From Thermophilibacter provencensis (GTDB lineage Bacteria; Actinomycetota; Coriobacteriia; Coriobacteriales; Atopobiaceae): 64,000 bases of DNA. Under the pieces are notes generated by a model that saw only the letters and a list, made by a program, of their open reading frames with translations, was not told where the DNA came from and did not search any database. The stretch is taken from contig NZ_LT671417.1 in NCBI RefSeq assembly GCF_900128445.1, positions 248,001 to 312,000 of the forward strand, in the 5' to 3' direction. Positions 7,093 to 62,728 of this stretch are shown one piece after another. The translations under genes were made by a program, and so were the position numbers. Numbering within the stretch: position 1 is the stretch's first letter; every line of letters starts with the position of its first letter.

Positions 7093-7132
7093 AAAAACCC
7101 GGCGGTTAGGTCCCTAGGACCCAAACGCCGGG
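7093..7132 (-). terminator. Terminator downstream of ftsX
   Basis: Minus-strand two-part stem CCCGGCG...GGTCC TAG GGACC...CGCCGGG followed by five T residues, located between ftsX and rnr. It directly follows a longer hairpin at 7131-7194. Confidence 0.8.
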
Positions 7133-7194
7133 AGCCCCCGCCACTCGCGCAGAGGTTCCGCAAAGCGCACCTCTGCGCGAGTGGCGGGGGCTCC
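7131..7194. repeat. 26-bp perfect inverted repeat between ftsX and rnr
   Basis: Arms 7131-7156 and 7169-7194 are exact reverse complements, with a 12-base loop. The stem is very GC-rich and begins ggagcccccgcc. It lies 20 bp after the ftsX stop and next to a conventional terminator, so it could act in termination or transcript 3'-end protection, but it is far longer than a terminator needs. Confidence 0.9.
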
Positions 7195-7214
7195 CCACCT
7201 AACGGTTGGCCGCC

Positions 7215-11268: not shown

Positions 11269-14140
<2,872 letters not shown>

Positions 14141-17409: not shown

Positions 17410-17529
17410 TTGGTCAGCGACGTCCTGCTCTCCCACGGACTACTCCGCAGTACCATCGGCGCTCGGGGGCTTAACTTCCGGGTTCGGAATGGGACCGGGT
17501 GTGCCTCCCCTGCCATGGTCGCTGACCAA
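17410..17529 (-). rRNA. rrf: 5S ribosomal RNA, copy 1
   Basis: About 120 nt. Terminal stem TTGGTCAGCGAC / GTCGCTGACCAA and the conserved loop CCCATTCCGAACCCGGAAGT identify 5S. The pairing extends past the mature ends (CCTTG/CAAGG), giving a processing stem. Exact ends are estimated. Confidence 0.95.
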
Positions 17530-17629
17530 CAAGGGGCATTCTGCTGTCAGGGGCGGCTCCGCGCCGTGCCCTGGGGGCCGCACAGCGTGACGTCGGACGC
17601 CCTCTCGGGATCGCTCGGGCCTGATGAAG

Positions 17630-22308
<4,679 letters not shown>

Positions 22309-22585
22309 AAGTGCCAGGCGGCTCGTGCCGCCGTGCGTTTCGGTTGGTGCGTCCGTCCCGTCCTAAGATCCCGCTGATCTCGGATTCGCTGAAATTGACG
22401 TCTCTGTGTGTCAGAGATTCGAATTTCGCTGGTCTGTCTTCGTCGATCTCTCGATCGCAGTATCCGGTTTTCAAGGTTCGCCGCGCTGGTCGGGGGCGCC
22501 TGCCCCGTCGCTGCGCGGGGATTAACTATACGCACCCGGCGGCCCCGCGGGGGCGGGAATCGCGAGGTTCACGTTTCCTCCACAA
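22309..22585 (-). promoter_or_regulatory. rRNA operon leader 1, with likely promoter and boxA
   Basis: 277 bp identical in all three operons. In copy 3 this block starts only 20 bp after the stop of the upstream gene, so the promoter should be inside it. The best -10 candidate is TATAGT at 22525-22530 (GTGCGTATAGTTAAT), an AT island in GC-rich DNA, with no clear -35. Downstream, CCTTGAAAACCGGATAC (about 22459-22475) looks like a boxA antitermination site. A 16S-flanking stem GGCGGCACGAGCCGCC follows. Confidence 0.6.
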
Positions 22586-23964
22586 CTGGGCCCGCGAGCC
22601 GGGGGCCGAGCAGTACGTCCGTGCAGCTACAGCGGTAAAACGATCTGACAGAGATGAGGTCCGGCATGGTTCGTGCCTCTCAAGCAAGCAGCGTGCCGGA
22701 AGTTGGCAGCACCCAGCCTCATTGCATGTTCGGGCGGGGGCGGACCTACGCATCCTCATCAGAAGTGACGCCGAGGGTCTGCGCGGGCGCGCTCTTGGCA
22801 AGGGCGCGAACATCAACGTCGATGCGGGCCGCGAGCGATAACCCATTACGCTCTTTGACGCAATCACGATTTGCGAGCCAAATCCCAATGATCGCGCGCC
22901 GTGCATCGGTAACCGCGGAGCGCTATCCGCACCGGAAGCCTCGGTCGAGGATCGTCATCGGCAAGCGCCCCGCGGCCGTCTCTTTCTGGCACGCTGAATA
23001 CGCTGACGAGGCTCCATGGAGGGCAGGGTTAACGGCCCAGGCTGAATTAAAGGTGAGGGAAGGGGGTCCGGGATATGAAGGCAAGGAGGAGCGGACATCT
23101 TGGGCACACGCCCCTTGTCGCTTCACACAAGACGTGACCGCAGGGATGGCATGAGGGTGTCATGAGAAGGCGGCCGTGAGGGCGGCAACAGCAACGGGGG
23201 CATGCGGCGATATCGCTTGCAGGGGGCTCGCGGTAGGCCCAATTGCTCCAGGAGGTCACTTTCATCAAACGAGCTCCGCGGCTCGCGCGAGACCAAGATG
23301 CTCACCAAATCAGGATCCGGCCTGGACGCCTCAACCGCCAAGGTGCCCCACGACTCCGCCCAGCAGCGCTATCCTAGCCTCCCCCACCGTAACAAGCCAA
23401 CAAAGGCGCTGAGGTCCGGCTAGTCGGTCGACATGGCGATGCCAGAGGCAGCCTATGCAATAGACACAAGCGCGGCGACCTGAACCAAGGCGCTCGTGAC
23501 GACCTCGGAGCCAAAGGAATCTCTGCTTGAGAATGGCGTCAGAGGCACACACACGGGGCAAAAGGATACGCTGGCGCACTGGCACTTAGCACTGGCGAAA
23601 CAGACCGCGTCGCACCAATAAAGTAGTCGTTCACCAGGGCAGCAAAATACGCAGACAGCACGCGCGGTCTGGGCCGCCCCTGGTACGAGGCTCGCCCACG
23701 TGCCCGTGGATGCAAAGGGTCGCGCGTGCACCCGAGGGCACATGAGGCTTTGAGACGCCAACTGAACGTAACGCTGCAGGAGGGTTTGCGTCATCGTATG
23801 CCGAGCATACGAAGCGTGAGAAAGCAGGCAGGGTCCTTGACGGCGCCGACTTCCACGTCAGCCCCATGAAGACCTTGCTAAGGCGCCGAGGCGAGCCGCG
23901 GCGGCAAAGACCTGTGGAGTGCAGATACAGGCTGAATTGTAAGCTGGATTCCGCGGGCCGGGCG
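22586..23964. other. Inter-operon spacer A, no gene recognised
   Basis: 1,379 bp between the leader of operon 1 and the 5S end of operon 2. GC content looks lower than in the neighbouring protein genes. ORFs occur on both strands but none has a good ribosome binding site, plausible protein composition or a recognisable motif. No tRNA-like cloverleaf or T-arm consensus was seen. It does not resemble spacer B. It may be a decayed gene region or an extended regulatory region. Confidence 0.6.
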
Positions 23965-23998
23965 CCCCCCGCGCCGCCGCGACGCAAAATGCCCCTTG

Positions 23999-24118
23999 TT
24001 GGTCAGCGACGTCCTGCTCTCCCACGGACTACTCCGCAGTACCATCGGCGCTCGGGGGCTTAACTTCCGGGTTCGGAATGGGACCGGGTGTGCCTCCCCT
24101 GCCATGGTCGCTGACCAA
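23999..24118 (-). rRNA. rrf: 5S ribosomal RNA, copy 2
   Basis: Identical to copy 1. No clear rho-independent terminator is seen downstream in the first 100 bp. Confidence 0.95.
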
Positions 24119-24218
24119 CAAGGGGCATTCTGCTGTCAGGGGCGGCTCCGCGCCGTGCCCTGGGGGCCGCACAGCGTGACGTCGGACGCCCTCTCGGGAT
24201 CGCTCGGGCCTGATGAAG

Positions 24219-27154
<2,936 letters not shown>

Positions 27155-27382
27155 GATGGCTCGAACATACTTAAAGTCTCGCGGCGGCTGGCGCCGCCGC
27201 GTCTTCAGATGCGATCTTCTTTGAGGAAAATCTTTCGTCACGCTATGCAGCTCTCAAGGTACGGCGAGGGCGAGCCCTCGAGACCGGACACTGCGCGCCC
27301 CGGGGGGCGCGACGAAGGCATCAGCGGGACTGGCGGGGACGTCCGCCGTCATGTTGTTCTCTTCTAAAGAGGCGATTCTCCC

Positions 27383-28897
<1,515 letters not shown>

Positions 28898-29174
28898 AAG
28901 TGCCAGGCGGCTCGTGCCGCCGTGCGTTTCGGTTGGTGCGTCCGTCCCGTCCTAAGATCCCGCTGATCTCGGATTCGCTGAAATTGACGTCTCTGTGTGT
29001 CAGAGATTCGAATTTCGCTGGTCTGTCTTCGTCGATCTCTCGATCGCAGTATCCGGTTTTCAAGGTTCGCCGCGCTGGTCGGGGGCGCCTGCCCCGTCGC
29101 TGCGCGGGGATTAACTATACGCACCCGGCGGCCCCGCGGGGGCGGGAATCGCGAGGTTCACGTTTCCTCCACAA
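28898..29174 (-). promoter_or_regulatory. rRNA operon leader 2
   Basis: Same 277-bp leader as copy 1, with the TATAGT candidate at 29114-29119 and the boxA-like element near 29048-29064. Confidence 0.6.
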
Positions 29175-30505
29175 TTTGGGATCGCTTTCGACTTCATGGA
29201 TTGCCCTGCGAAAGAATCCGGCCGCGTCGTGCCCTAACGATGGGCCTCCGATTCCTTCGGATTTCGACATGGGCGGCTGGGGTACGTTATCACCCCTGAC
29301 TCTTGATGCCCGCGGACGAACCGCATACGGGGCCGCATCCCACCCAATCGCGCATGTGACGTCGAGCCTCTTTCGCACCTCACCCCAGAGACTCGAGGCG
29401 CCCTATCCCTTCGACCCCACTCCTCCTCGTATCTTTCCGAACCTGTCCCTTTTGCTGATGAGCGCATTGCGGCGAAGTATCGTTAGGTGCTTGATGCACT
29501 TGTTCCTGCGACGATGCAAGCCGTTGACCTAATGCCAGCCCCGACCCGTTATCGGAGCGCGCTATCCCGCGGCAGCTCGCCAGGCCGTCATGCCCGTAGA
29601 CCATCGAGAAGTCGATAAGGGGGGCAGGGCATTTCGATTTAGTCCGAACCTAGACGCCATGAGCTGACGCTCGTATACCTCCTCGCAAGAACGTGACCCA
29701 CGAGGGGTTTGTCCGGTTTTGTGATTTGTCCGCCTCCGACATGTCAACCTCGCGGGCGGTTACCCCGCCGTAGCGTACTCCACCAGTCGGAGCCCCCACG
29801 AGCGCAACGACACGAGCTCATCCACGCAGAGACACCCGCGACGTACGCAGATAACGTTGTAACGCCCTCACCACAACGAGAACCGATTGGACGGACCACG
29901 GGACACCACGCGCGAGGCGGAGGTCGACGAGTTGCGCGACCTTCCCTCGGGGGAAGAGGGTTTTATAGACCGCTCAAAATCGGGGCGCCTCGATAAGCAT
30001 CGCATGACGCCACTCCGGTCGGTGCGCGACGAAGTTGAAATCACGCCACGCCCCAAGATCAGTGGAATCTCAATTACCCATTAGGGCTTCTTGGCAGAAA
30101 TATAAAGGCGTCCTGCATCACACGCGCGCAGAGACGATTGCCTCGACGTCGGCCTCAACGGCCGCGACTACTCAAAGGACATGCAGTAAGGCTGCCCCAC
30201 GGAGTAGCAGACAAGCAGAATATGGCTTACCCGCATGAGGACAACGGCGCCGGTGCCGGCGCGCTCGTACGGCCAGGTGGTCCGACTCCATCAATTAGCC
30301 GCTACGACAGGCCATCCCCTACAGCCAAGCCCCTGTCTTCGCGAGGTGAAAGACATAAGCGTCTCCCCAGAGAGTCGCCCAGCGACTCCCCCAGAGTCGG
30401 AGCAAACGGCATTGTAAGACGACGGGCAGATACAAAAAGAGCCGACCTTACGGACGGCTCAAACTGTGATGCAAGGAGTGCGAGGACCCTACGCAGAATG
30501 GCAAG
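29175..30505. other. Inter-operon spacer B, no gene recognised
   Basis: 1,331 bp between the leader of operon 2 and the 5S end of operon 3. It includes the operon 3 terminator at 30434-30460. A possible plus-strand hairpin with a T run lies near 29939-29965 (CCTTCCC...GGGGAAGAGGG, TTTT). ORFs are short, overlap randomly and lack motifs; no tRNA seen. No similarity to spacer A was noticed. Confidence 0.6.
30434..30460 (-). terminator. Rho-independent terminator of rRNA operon 3
   Basis: Minus-strand GAGCCG-TCCGTAAGGT-CGGCTC followed by TTTTT, about 80 bp after the 5S gene and outside the repeated unit. Equivalent clear terminators were not found for operons 1 and 2. Confidence 0.8.
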
Positions 30506-30539
30506 CCCCCCGCGCCGCCGCGACGCAAAATGCCCCTTG

Positions 30540-30659
30540 TTGGTCAGCGACGTCCTGCTCTCCCACGGACTACTCCGCAGTACCATCGGCGCTCGGGGGC
30601 TTAACTTCCGGGTTCGGAATGGGACCGGGTGTGCCTCCCCTGCCATGGTCGCTGACCAA
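30540..30659 (-). rRNA. rrf: 5S ribosomal RNA, copy 3
   Basis: Identical to copy 1; followed by the terminator at 30434-30460. Confidence 0.95.
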
Positions 30660-30759
30660 CAAGGGGCATTCTGCTGTCAGGGGCGGCTCCGCGCCGTGCC
30701 CTGGGGGCCGCACAGCGTGACGTCGGACGCCCTCTCGGGATCGCTCGGGCCTGATGAAG

Positions 30760-33695
<2,936 letters not shown>

Positions 33696-33923
33696 GATGG
33701 CTCGAACATACTTAAAGTCTCGCGGCGGCTGGCGCCGCCGCGTCTTCAGATGCGATCTTCTTTGAGGAAAATCTTTCGTCACGCTATGCAGCTCTCAAGG
33801 TACGGCGAGGGCGAGCCCTCGAGACCGGACACTGCGCGCCCCGGGGGGCGCGACGAAGGCATCAGCGGGACTGGCGGGGACGTCCGCCGTCATGTTGTTC
33901 TCTTCTAAAGAGGCGATTCTCCC

Positions 33924-35438
<1,515 letters not shown>

Positions 35439-48016: not shown

Positions 48017-48030
48017 TTCTGCTCCTTTCC

Positions 48031-48098
48031 GCAAATTGGGGACAGTCCCCAATTTACATAAAACATTTCTGCTAATTGGGGACTGTCCCCAACTTGCA
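48031..48098. repeat. Paired palindromes in the upp leader
   Basis: Two short palindromes, each with core ttggggac-n-gtccccaa (about 48035-48053 and 48076-48092), arranged so that the whole segment is itself an inverted repeat (gcaaattgggg... / ...ccccaacttgc). The sequence catttctgct precedes both. It could be a mobile repeat or a regulatory leader of upp. Confidence 0.8.
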
Positions 48099-48100
48099 GA

Positions 48101-55822: not shown

Positions 55823-55843
55823 GGCAGGACTCCTCTTCTTCGG

Positions 55844-55891
55844 CCCTGGTTTCCGACCAGGGCAGGGGTTCGTCTTGGTTCCGACCAAGAC
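55844..55891 (-). promoter_or_regulatory. L31 ribosomal leader (Coriobacteria-type), two hairpins
   Basis: In the rpmE 5' UTR, minus strand: GTCTTGGT-CGGA-ACCAAGAC (55872-55891) and CCCTGGT-CGGAA-ACCAGGG (55844-55862). Both stems close over the shared GGTCGGAA. Ribosomal-protein leader RNAs have been described upstream of L31 genes, including a Coriobacteria group, and this arrangement fits; the match is from memory. L31 is the presumed ligand. Confidence 0.7.
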
Positions 55892-56005: not shown

Positions 56006-56779
56006 ATGTTCCTTGCCATCGACGTCGGAAACACGCAGACCACGCTGGGGCTCTTCCGCGAGGACGGCTCCCTTGCGCGCGGGTGGCGCATGTCCACGGA
56101 CGCGAGCGACACGGCCGACATGCTCCACGCCCGGCTCCTCTCCTTCTTCGCGAAGGACGGCCTCGCGCTTGACGACGCGAGCGAGGCGGGCGTGGCGTCG
56201 GTGGTTCCCGCGCTCGAGCGCGCGTGGGAGCGCTGCCTCACGGCACATCTCGGCAAGGCCCCGCTCGTCGTCCGCGCGAAAGAGGGGTATGGGATGGAGG
56301 TCGCCATGCCCGACCCGCGTCAGGTCGGGGCCGACCGCATCGCCAACGCCATCGCTGCGAGAGGAACCTACGGCTCGCCGGTCATCGTAGTGGACTTTGG
56401 GACGGCCACGAACATCGACGTCGTGGACCAGCGGGGGCGCTACCGCGGCGGAGCCATCTCTCCGGGGCTCATGCTCTCCGCGAACGCGCTCTTCTCGCGC
56501 GCGGCGAGACTCGCAAGCGTGCCCATCGAGGCGCCCGCCCGGACGCTCGGCGACTCCACCGAGTCGGCCCTGCAGTCAGGCCTCGTCGTCGGCGCCGCGG
56601 CGCAGGCCGAGGGGCTTGTGGCGCGCATCCGCGCCGAGCTGGGCGCGCCCGATGCGACGGTCGTGGGCACGGGCGGCCTGGCCGGAACCGTCGCGCAGGC
56701 GACGGACCTCTTCGACGCCGTGGACCCCGACCTCACCCTGCGGGGCATCCGAGAGATCTGGCTCTGGGAGCAAGCGTGA
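56006..56779 (+). CDS. coaX: Type III pantothenate kinase
   Basis: 257 aa from ATG 56006 (GGGGGAGG upstream). Phosphorylates pantothenate, the first step of CoA synthesis, and is not inhibited by CoA. ASKHA-fold motifs: DVGNTQTTLGLF (phosphate 1), GADRIANAIAA with the catalytic Asp, VVDFGTATNIDVVD (phosphate 2) and GGAISPGLMLSANAL. Length is normal. It converges on the BirA-like gene, with an 84-bp perfect palindrome between them. Confidence 0.95.
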   Translation: MFLAIDVGNTQTTLGLFREDGSLARGWRMSTDASDTADMLHARLLSFFAKDGLALDDASEAGVASVVPALERAWERCLTAHLGKAPLVVRAKEGYGMEVAMPDPRQVGADRIANAIAARGTYGSPVIVVDFGTATNIDVVDQRGRYRGGAISPGLMLSANALFSRAARLASVPIEAPARTLGDSTESALQSGLVVGAAAQAEGLVARIRAELGAPDATVVGTGGLAGTVAQATDLFDAVDPDLTLRGIREIWLWEQA

Positions 56780-56784
56780 CGAAG

Positions 56785-56868
56785 GCGTGACAGGGTGCCG
56801 GGGGAAAGTGTCATGAAACGGATTTATAAATCCGTTTCATGACACTTTCCCCCGGCACCCTGTCACGC
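56785..56868. repeat. 84-bp perfect palindrome between convergent genes
   Basis: Two 42-bp arms meet at gattta|taaatc (centre 56826/56827) with no spacer and no mismatch. The arms contain gtgacaggg and tgtcatgaa, cores shared with the palindrome at 60811-60907. It begins 5 bp after the coaX stop and ends 17 bp before the stop of the opposing gene, so it may act as a two-way transcription barrier. Confidence 0.95.
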
Positions 56869-56885
56869 TCCCCCCGGCGCGCCCG

Positions 56886-57416
56886 TCACTGGCACCTTGT
56901 CACGATGCGGCGAAGCTCCGCCTGCTCGGGGGCGAGCTCGAGTTCCCGGCCGTCAGCGAGCCGCACCGTAGCCCGGCCCCAGACGTCCACGGCCATGAGC
57001 GTCCCCTTGGCGACGGCGCGTCCCGCGCGCAGGACCTCCACGTCCTCCCCCATTGAGGCAAGGGCGTCAAAGTAGTCGGACAGCACGGGCGCGAGCGGAC
57101 CCGCGGCGGCCCGGCCGGCGGCGACGGAGGAGGCCCAGGCATCCACGGCCTCGCGGACGGCGCATGAGAGCGCCTCGGCATCGAGGTTCTTCTCGCCGCG
57201 CGGCACTATGTCGCAGGTCACGTAGATGCCCTCGTCATCGTAGCCGGCGCGGGCCCGGACGGACGCGATCGGGCCCTCGTCCGTGCCCACCACCTCATGC
57301 GGCCAGGCAACGCGCGCGTCGAGTGCGCCCGCCACGGCGAGCGCCGCCACGAACGGCACGCCGGTCACGTGCCCCATCGGCACCGCCGGGCGCAGCGTGA
57401 GAGAGGCTACTCCCAT
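56886..57416 (-). CDS. BirA-fold (biotin/lipoate ligase-like) protein, probably non-canonical
   Basis: 176 aa from ATG 57416, 5 nt after GGAGG and overlapping the folP-folK stop by 10 bp. The layout recalls the C-terminal two thirds of biotin-protein ligases: VPFVAALAVAGALDARVAWPHEVV (cf. AvadaLe...KWPNDV), then a strand where the enzymes have GIGIN but this protein has YVTCDIVPRG, then an SH3-like end (GRAVAKGTLMAVDVWGRATVRLADG). The N-terminal ATP/biotin loop GRGRxG is absent. So ligase activity is doubtful; it may be a binding or regulatory relative. Coupled to folP-folK by overlap. Confidence 0.6.
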   Translation of the reverse strand: MGVASLTLRPAVPMGHVTGVPFVAALAVAGALDARVAWPHEVVGTDEGPIASVRARAGYDDEGIYVTCDIVPRGEKNLDAEALSCAVREAVDAWASSVAAGRAAAGPLAPVLSDYFDALASMGEDVEVLRAGRAVAKGTLMAVDVWGRATVRLADGRELELAPEQAELRRIVTRCQ

Positions 57417-59851: not shown

Positions 59852-60805
59852 GTGAACACGCTCACCAACAACGTCTTCGACTGCGCCCTCGTGTTCGAGG
59901 GCGGCGGGTATCGAGGCAGCTTCTCTGCCGGTATCGCCAACGTCCTGCTGGAGCAGGGAATCCACTTTGACTACGTCTGCGGCCTCTCGGCCGGGGCGAG
60001 CAACACGATCAACTACGTCTCGCGCGACCGCACGCGCGTAAGAAAGTCGTTCATCGTGGACGGACCCGCAAAGTCTGCCGTGGGCCTGCGCTCCATCCTG
60101 CGCGGGAGGGGATACTTCGACGCCGACGCGCTCTATGAGGGCGCTCTCACCTCGGGTGCGCTCCCCTTTGACTGGGAGGCTTTCTCGGCCAACCCGGCAC
60201 GCGTCCGCATCCAGGCCTTTGAGCGCGACTCCGGCCGCACCGTTCGCTTTGGCCGCGAGGAGATGACCGACCCGACGCGCATGGTCAACATCGTGCGGGC
60301 AAGCTCCACCCTCCCGGGCGCAATGCAGCCCCTCCCCATCGACGGCGTGGTCTACTACGACGGCGGCCTGGGAACGGGCGCGGGTATCCCGCTCTGCATG
60401 GCGGAAGACGACGGGTTCGAGCGGTTCTTCTTCGTGGCCACGCGGCCGCGCGGCTACCGCAAGCAGCCCCCGACGGAGCGCGAGGCGCGGATCTATGCCC
60501 GTATCGCCAAGGACTATCCCTACCTGCGCAAGGCCCTTCTCTCGCGCTGGGAGCGCTATAACGTCGCCATCGAGCACGTGGAGCGCCTCGCCGCCGAGGG
60601 CCGCGCCTATGTGGTCTATCCCGACGAGATGACCGTCGAGAGCGGGACCGTGAGCACGCGCAGGCTGACGGCCTCCTATGAGGCGGCGCACGAGCAGGGC
60701 CTGCGGGACCTGCCGCTCTGGCGCACGTTCCTCTTTGGCGCGCCCGACGCCGGCCCCCGCCCGGAGGACCCCGACGCGGGAACCGGCTACATCACGCTCG
60801 GCTAG
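59852..60805 (+). CDS. Patatin-like phospholipase family protein
   Basis: 317 aa from GTG 59852, with AAGGAGG 5 nt upstream; an earlier TTG in frame is not needed. Motifs: EGGGYRGSFSAGI (oxyanion loop), CGLSAGASNTINY (nucleophile Ser in GLSAG) and YYDGGLGTGAGIPL (catalytic Asp). The later half has the region FEQFFFVATRPRGYRK-type seen in this family (here FERFFFVATRPRGY). No signal peptide. Same family as 411-1313 but on the opposite strand and clearly diverged. Substrate unknown. Confidence 0.92.
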   Translation: MNTLTNNVFDCALVFEGGGYRGSFSAGIANVLLEQGIHFDYVCGLSAGASNTINYVSRDRTRVRKSFIVDGPAKSAVGLRSILRGRGYFDADALYEGALTSGALPFDWEAFSANPARVRIQAFERDSGRTVRFGREEMTDPTRMVNIVRASSTLPGAMQPLPIDGVVYYDGGLGTGAGIPLCMAEDDGFERFFFVATRPRGYRKQPPTEREARIYARIAKDYPYLRKALLSRWERYNVAIEHVERLAAEGRAYVVYPDEMTVESGTVSTRRLTASYEAAHEQGLRDLPLWRTFLFGAPDAGPRPEDPDAGTGYITLG

Positions 60806-60810
60806 CAATC

Positions 60811-60907
60811 CCGGCGAGGGCTGGCATGACAAAGGTGACAGGGCAAACTGTCATGAATCCTTCATGACAGTTTGCCCTGTCACCTTTGTCATGCCAGCCT
60901 TCGCCGG
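60811..60907. repeat. 47-bp stem inverted repeat between convergent genes
   Basis: Arms 60811-60857 and 60861-60907 pair with only one G-T mismatch (60818/60900), over a 3-base centre. Shares gtgacaggg and tgtcatgaa with the 84-bp palindrome at 56785. Lies between the patatin stop and the xthA stop, 5 and 10 bp away. Confidence 0.95.
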
Positions 60908-60917
60908 CGCCGCCGGG

Positions 60918-62695: not shown

Positions 62696-62728
62696 ATGGG
62701 TCAAAAGTGACTGTCACTTTTGACTCAT
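62696..62728. repeat. Short palindrome overlapping the aminotransferase stop
   Basis: 16-bp arms 62696-62711 and 62713-62728 with one G-T pair and a single central base; core gtcaaaagtgac-t-gtcac. It covers the stop codon of the aminotransferase gene. Confidence 0.8.

Follow-up and report, generated by a model that had tools for sequence, protein, structure and literature searches.

A perfect 84-bp palindrome downstream of coaX in Thermophilibacter provencensis is very probably one copy of a RAYT-linked family of inverted REP-like dimers

The DNA analysed here, called the window throughout, is the whole stretch of 64,000 nucleotides at C3:248001-312000 of the Thermophilibacter provencensis genome (the source genome, 2,633,422 bases in 3 contigs, labelled G000; other G-numbers denote genomes compared, and L-numbers denote loci fetched). 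At the locus under study, coaX and a convergent ORF face each other across a spacer largely occupied by a palindrome. The features of this locus, together with a second palindrome of the same family, are listed below.

56006..56779, plus strand: coaX, encoding type III pantothenate kinase (Pfam/NCBIfam family matches); its 3' end abuts the palindrome, stop codon at 56777-56779
56777..56786, plus strand: degenerate outer arm part (TGACGAAGGC, cf. TGACAAAGG), containing the TGA that is the coaX stop (sequence and congener comparison)
56785..56868, no strand: 84-bp perfect palindrome of two inverted 42-nt arms with spacer 0, an inverted REP-like dimer (set beside 23 other genome copies)
56785..56816, plus strand: left arm, GTGACAGGG...TGTCATGA, a variant of the family arm (copy comparison)
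56817..56836, no strand: centre of 20 nt (AACGGATTTA/TAAATCCGTT), wholly self-palindromic (comparison of 24 copies)
56837..56868, minus strand: right arm, inverted, same sequence as the left arm (copy comparison)
56886..57416, minus strand: convergent ORF (start inferred), its stop end 17 bp from the palindrome (ORF list)
56890..56903, minus strand: possible leftover of one more arm (GTGACAAGGTGCCA), adjoining the stop of the convergent ORF (by eye)
60805..60913, no strand: second palindrome of the same family, with 54-bp arms, 6 mismatches and a 1-nt loop (window scan and genome pattern search)

In the window sequence, 56785-56826 is the exact reverse complement of 56827-56868, giving 42 of 42 pairs with spacer 0. 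An earlier sequence-only reading of this DNA had described a perfect, loop-free 84-bp palindrome filling the gap between convergent genes, and both points are borne out: of the 106 bases that separate the two stop codons, the palindrome takes up 84. The convergent ORF has no family match in Pfam or NCBIfam. The RNA of 56770-56890 has a folding energy of -94.6 kcal/mol; 200 shuffles averaged -38.2 (z -15.7), and 0 of them were as good. The arm of this copy folded singly is no better than shuffles (z 0.50). A known structured RNA was rejected, as the Rfam matches at the palindrome are all sub-threshold and fall to miRNA hairpin families; the same search of the window placed an L31-Coriobacteria leader at 55830-55863, away from the palindrome. 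Elsewhere, the window carries a tandem array of three minus-strand rRNA operons (17412-35438), about 6.5 kb apart, a long hairpin at 7125-7200 with 27-bp perfect arms and a 12-nt loop, unrelated in sequence to the palindrome family, and a 50-nt inverted repeat at 11413-11554 (94% complementary, spacer 42 nt).

Searching the source genome with the pattern TGTCATGA-N0-30-TCATGACA yielded 24 matches, against 0 for a reversed control pattern. Both palindromes of the window are among these exact-core copies, on which all per-copy statistics given here are based. The 42/42 pairing, the 24 genome copies against a control of 0 and the fold z of -15.7 together rule out a chance repeat. The copies share one layout, in which the arm CTGACAAAGGTGACAGGGTCAACTGTCATGA is followed by a centre of 3-22 nt and then by the arm inverted; the copy after coaX is an arm variant, with TGCCGGGGGAAAG where most copies have TCAAC or a close variant. 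The total perfect arm has a median of 34.5 bp and a maximum of 44, compared with 42 bp after coaX. Two of the 24 copies are loop-free, the unpaired loop is 0-5 nt in 22 of them, and one other copy (L016) has a fully palindromic centre. Taken as a single unit, the consensus arm folds at -4.9 kcal/mol (z -1.43). According to a simple gene caller, 23 of the 24 copies lie outside called genes, and the remaining one (L034) overlaps a called ORF.

The family extends beyond the exact-core copies. The 17-mer TGACAAAGGTGACAGGG occurs within at most 2 mismatches at 71 + 74 = 145 places in the genome (control, 0), and a second pattern, built on the outer arm, matches 45 places. Counting inverted pairs from the two patterns together by hand gave at least 41 in the source genome, namely the 24 exact-core copies plus the 32 TGTCA-type among the 45 (13 of GGACGG type being set aside), minus 15 found in both. 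Among the 31 genomes of the genus, 7 have core palindromes (24 in the source genome, 23 in G018, 8 in G014, 7 in G013, 2 each in G012 and G028, and 1 in G016; the 23 of G018 lie on 22 fetched stretches), and the other 24 have zero. Outside the genus there were 8 core matches (7 in G033 and 1 in G046); their centres differ, and they seem to represent a different element. The outer-arm pattern has 48 matches in G014, compared with 45 in the source genome; many among the G014 matches listed belong to a sister subfamily whose arms carry TAGATTGTCACCATG, beside which there is an open RAYT.

The source genome holds four Y1_Tnp genes. One of them, the RAYT at C3:81971-82375, has the family arm on both sides, the upstream and downstream arms being oppositely oriented. 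With its first 135 residues as the query against 80 genomes (the source genome, 30 congeners and 49 others), matches at 1e-10 were found in 50 of the 80, many with several, and arms were counted at 30 RAYT loci fetched among these matches. The six loci at 72% identity or more (own, G018, G009, G028, G014 and G013) have 4, 4, 3, 4, 5 and 5 arms, respectively, and inverted flanking arms are present at 6/6 fetched loci of this close lineage. At the other 24 loci (52-66% identity), 22 are without an arm, L071 has one weak match (21/31) and L072 has one arm (27/31); shuffled RAYT loci gave a mean of 0.017 arms. The close RAYT is present in 5 of the 7 genus genomes having core palindromes, G012 (2 core copies) and G016 (1) being those that have such palindromes without it. 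The close RAYT of G009 contains one in-frame TGA, and that genome has zero core copies.

At the protein level, the RAYT matches PF01797 Y1_Tnp of Pfam at 51.4 bits, above the cut-off of 23. Its sole NCBIfam match is NF047646 REP_Tyr_transpos (66.5 bits, E 2.2e-18), for which all four RAYTs of the source genome, the first scored as the 135-residue piece, are below the cut-off of 80 bits. A sequence search for solved structures related to this piece returned zero matches. The gene in the source genome (L005, G000:C3:81500-82514) is frameshifted after about residue 135, while the frame stays open past this point in the closest relatives except G009. The frameshift may represent decay or a sequencing or assembly indel, so current mobility in the source genome is doubtful unless the indel is an assembly error. 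Each of the other three RAYTs of the source genome has a palindrome of its own close to the two ends of the gene:

RAYT L003, both gene ends: palindrome GTGCAAAAG...CTTTTGCAC
RAYT L004, both gene ends: palindrome GGACGGAG-N12-CTCCGTCC
RAYT L006, both gene ends: motif AATTGGGGACTGTCCCCAATT

Counterparts of two of these occur in the window. An inverted pair of the AATTGGGGACTGTCCCCAATT type lies at 48028-48100 and constitutes a second REP-like family there, and the palindrome GTCAAAAGTGAC-T-GTCACTTTTGAC at 62696-62728 is similar to those beside RAYT L003.

Comparison of the coaX site with relatives revealed the palindrome in 0 of the 19 congeners (of 30) for which 170 nt downstream of coaX were inspected. 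The coaX stop codon is TAG in 19/19 of these congeners versus TGA, within the outer unit of the element, in the source genome. The same neighbour-gene end is visible by eye within the 170 nt in 13 of the 19; G013, G015, G004, G001, G011 and G006, where the neighbour gene is unseen, are therefore weaker empty sites. In G012 (CoaX 98% identical) and G018 (94%), both flanks can be aligned and enclose 31 and 34 nt, respectively, versus 131 in the source genome. The site of the second palindrome is occupied in G018 by a 35-nt spacer with a short CTGACA/TGTCAG remnant, versus 113 in the source genome, and in G012 by other sequence; at C3:318943, G012 has 4 nt versus 102. Copies shared on both flanks were found at eight sites with G018 and at one with G012, and one further G018 site has a variant core. 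Absence from relatives weakens the earlier suggestion that so long a palindrome is rarely kept without a function. These comparisons also bear on an assembly artefact, a fold-back at a contig edge or a polymerase hairpin, which we regard as next to impossible and for which no supporting evidence emerged: the palindrome lies deep within its contig (about 2.63 Mb), its flanks align on both sides with two relatives, and the relatives' separate assemblies hold palindromes of the same kind with variants of their own.

One site points to exchange between copies. At L141 (G000:C3:110200-116700), a 6.3-kb segment lies between two palindromes, and G018 has one palindrome joining the outer flanks. The ORFs of the segment, named by eye as aldolase-like, PTS-like, ROK-type and regulator, are sugar-uptake-like. 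Compared by sequence, the two arrangements suggest loss or gain of the segment through recombination between copies. A recombination site, another of the roles put forward earlier, thus has one supporting case, located elsewhere in the genome and not at coaX.

Placement was assessed with gene calls from a simple codon-usage script rather than annotation. Twelve of the 24 copies lie between convergent genes, 11 between tandem genes and 1 (L036) between divergent genes; the gene junctions in the window, palindrome sites included, comprise 34 tandem, 3 convergent and 3 divergent. The centre is within 65 nt of a called stop in 21/24 copies, compared with 120/387 random intergenic points in the same loci. 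One copy is 920 nt from any called stop; it was kept in all counts, as were L036 and L034. Such placement would suit a bidirectional terminator or mRNA 3'-end stabiliser selected at convergent pairs, the family then being a shared terminator design, and so would the very stable RNA hairpin (-94.6 kcal/mol) and the second palindrome, which a consensus terminator scan called terminator-like once per strand. The same scan made no terminator-like call at 56785-56868, however, and at least 5 T in the 8 nt beyond the 31-nt arm occur on only 1 of 48 sides. No T-run follows the copy after coaX, and an intrinsic (Rho-independent) terminator, in which a T-run comes after a GC-rich stem, was accordingly rejected for it. 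Moreover, all 19 congeners do without the palindrome after coaX, and the family follows one RAYT lineage. The 3'-end placement is no discriminator and no proof of a terminator role, because published REPs, in the available part of PMC3733652, are placed in the same way. We consider selection as a terminator or stabiliser improbable, and the two-way terminator of the sequence-only reading is not supported as the nature of this copy.

A related reading is compatible with RAYT-driven spread, namely that a dimer spread by the RAYT has since been co-opted to structure the 3' ends of coaX and of the gene facing it. In its favour, the coaX stop codon comes from the element (TGA against TAG in 19/19 congeners), and the element, with its stable hairpin, occupies most of the spacer. 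Set against this, the congeners have other sequence or very short spacers after coaX. Co-option is conceivable, though we would sooner doubt it than assume it.

Taken together, the palindrome at 56785-56868 is very probably a member of a family of inverted REP-like dimers (REPIN/BIME-like) that is dispersed through the genome and linked to one RAYT, a HUH single-strand transposase of the Y1_Tnp type. What had appeared as an isolated oddity becomes a traceable repeat family of the mobile type. The earlier interpretation as a whole is partly supported; its mobile palindromic element comes out best, given the dispersed family, the RAYT with inverted flanking copies and the palindrome in 0/19 congeners after coaX, from which we infer the movement itself. 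We found no REP/RAYT description for this bacterial group in the open-licence PubMed Central literature.

This assignment enables us to propose a putative course of events. The copy after coaX was probably gained by insertion in the lineage of the window, not lost in the others. The RAYT would cut and paste single-stranded arm hairpins, replication forks being the probable place, and copies would persist just 3' of stop codons, where harm is presumably least. In this way coaX would have received a new stop codon from the element. Once inserted, the arms may stay identical because template switching takes place within their hairpin, or the sites may be re-used by new insertions. A lack of SbcCD could permit spacerless perfect dimers but would not alone produce them. 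Effects on mRNA 3' ends would be a by-product or a later co-option.

The two arms of a copy resemble each other more than they resemble the arms of other copies. Over arm positions 9-30 of the 24 copies, identity is 97.0% within a copy versus 80.6% between copies (0/5000 permutations), although the core search needs the inner 8 nt to be symmetric and thus passes over decayed copies, which may inflate the within-copy figure. Deviations from the consensus occur in both arms in 53 cases versus one arm in 16. Symmetry continues into the flank, with 61.3% within versus 37.6% between copies over the first 7 nt beyond the arm (0/5000 permutations) and 40.6% versus 30.0% over the following 8 nt (7/5000); farther out than these 15 nt, the 24 copies show none. 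Eleven comparisons with relatives gave 26 symmetric versus 5 one-arm differences at the compared sites, or 24 versus 5 once the L009-L114 row, not orthologous on the right, is set aside. In the pair L015/L130, the centre is inverted between species (GCCTT/AAGGC).

Divergence of this symmetric kind, as read from the aligned copies, suggests homogenisation by template switching or re-insertion. In the available part of PMC8604942, arm homogenisation and spacer inversion are given as marks of template switching. Re-insertion also gives symmetric differences, and because centres changed in 9 of the 11 comparisons it has to be kept in consideration. Whichever process is at work, the sites shared between species, with their symmetric divergence, allow arm homogenisation or the re-use of sites to be measured in bacteria.

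Template switching could also be invoked for the origin of the palindrome, made on the spot as an inverted duplication without transposition. The copy-specific symmetric flank (61.3% versus 37.6% over the first 7 nt) and the centre inverted between species (GCCTT/AAGGC) would fit such an origin, as would C3:318943, where by eye G012 has one version of the outer flank versus two inverted ones in the source genome. However, dozens of unlinked sites, and the surroundings of one RAYT, carry this arm as well, and template switching evens out or lengthens palindromes but does not disperse them. We hold an on-the-spot origin to be very improbable, and return to the RAYT-linked dimer family.

How such palindromes survive leads to SbcCD, which the sequence-only reading had proposed to check. 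A profile search for SbcD (TIGR00619) gave no match in the source genome, and none of the 31 genus genomes has a match above the cut-off: 29 are without any match, and 2 have sub-cut-off fragments (E about 8e-4 to 9e-4). The same profile matched 13 of 14 control genomes, 8 over the cut-off, and exceeded the cut-off in 14 of the 80 genomes, all of other genera. For SbcC, weak partial matches (E 6e-8 to 6e-5), taken as SMC-like, are present in all 31 genus genomes. Strong matches (E < 1e-30) are confined to other genera, where 15 genomes have them, G066 and all 14 that are SbcD-positive; the SbcC profile discriminates more weakly than SbcD, its family cut-off being reached in 0/80 genomes and 1/14 controls. 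The SbcC picture is consistent with SbcCD absence but is not proof of it. Absence of SbcD is at most permissive for the palindromes, because 14 of the 18 genomes from other genera of the family likewise show no SbcD above the cut-off and because 24 of the 31 genus genomes have no core palindrome. An 84-bp palindrome is near the lower limit of strong palindrome instability in E. coli, so its tolerance may not require the loss of SbcCD.

Two facts nevertheless stand side by side: SbcCD was not found in the genus, and near-perfect long palindromes are many in some of its species. We also advance a tentative proposal, which we rate as possible though rather unlikely, that in a genus without SbcCD a RAYT-coupled family moved to spacerless perfect dimers, and that template switching in the hairpin would continually rewrite one arm onto the other, every copy then evolving symmetrically as one unit. 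If true, these genomes would be a natural test of whether it is SbcCD that keeps REP dimers unequal or spaced. In the available part of Di Nocera et al. (PMC3733652), unequal dimers are suggested to survive through escaping SbcCD. Perfect homodimers in an SbcD-less genus fit this idea without being a test of it, and the genus would allow the suggestion to be tested by comparison and in E. coli.

The family is reminiscent of several known systems, which we compare here as far as the accessible portions of the cited papers go. Like the REP/BIME and RAYT 'REPtron' of Nunvar et al. 2010 (PMC2817692), it is a dispersed extragenic repeat, two inverted copies flank a RAYT gene with a Y1_Tnp (Pfam01797) domain, and repeat variants and RAYT variants go together. 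It differs in its host, a member of the Coriobacteriia, in its single arm, a weak imperfect hairpin whose dimer is a near-perfect long palindrome, and in lacking the GT(A/G)G head of the REPtron. Within the arm plus 10 nt outside, GTAG occurs in 1/48 arms, GTGG in 2/48 and CGTC in 6/48 at differing positions. With no tag found at the arm ends, a classical GTAG- or CGTC-tagged REP was rejected.

The tagged REP dimers of Di Nocera et al. 2013, as described in the part of PMC3733652 at hand, likewise include dimers arranged head to head, close to the 3' ends of both ORFs of a convergent pair, and stop codons supplied by the element termini; some lie within larger palindromes, and a few families have 1-2 bp spacers. 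They bear a GTAG/CGTC tag, whereas the present family has neither, and their unequal dimers are suggested in that paper to escape SbcCD, whereas perfect homodimers occur here where SbcD was not found. TnpA-REP (PMC8266576, in part) is a transposase of the same kind, and its strand-specific recognition of single-stranded hairpins is by analogy assumed for the present family; that recognition needs a GTAG motif, which the present arms do not have. The template switching of quasipalindromes (PMC8604942, in part; see also PMC8794818) was described for coding inverted repeats of yeast and for hairpins of RNA, and a REP family of bacteria is not among these cases. Patterns like both of its marks, arm homogenisation and spacer inversion, are seen here.

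Finally, the REPIN of Bertels & Rainey 2011 (PMC3116915, in part) also consists of two inverted REPs forming one long hairpin, and occurs as many dimers tied to one RAYT. In the Pseudomonas GI REPIN, 71 bp separate the two 16-mers, whereas the loop is 0-5 nt in 22 of the 24 present copies, and the present arms differ between copies while matching within a copy. Mobilisation in trans by the RAYT, as in REPINs, would account for the same site being empty in relatives, a sequence comparison that supports it indirectly.
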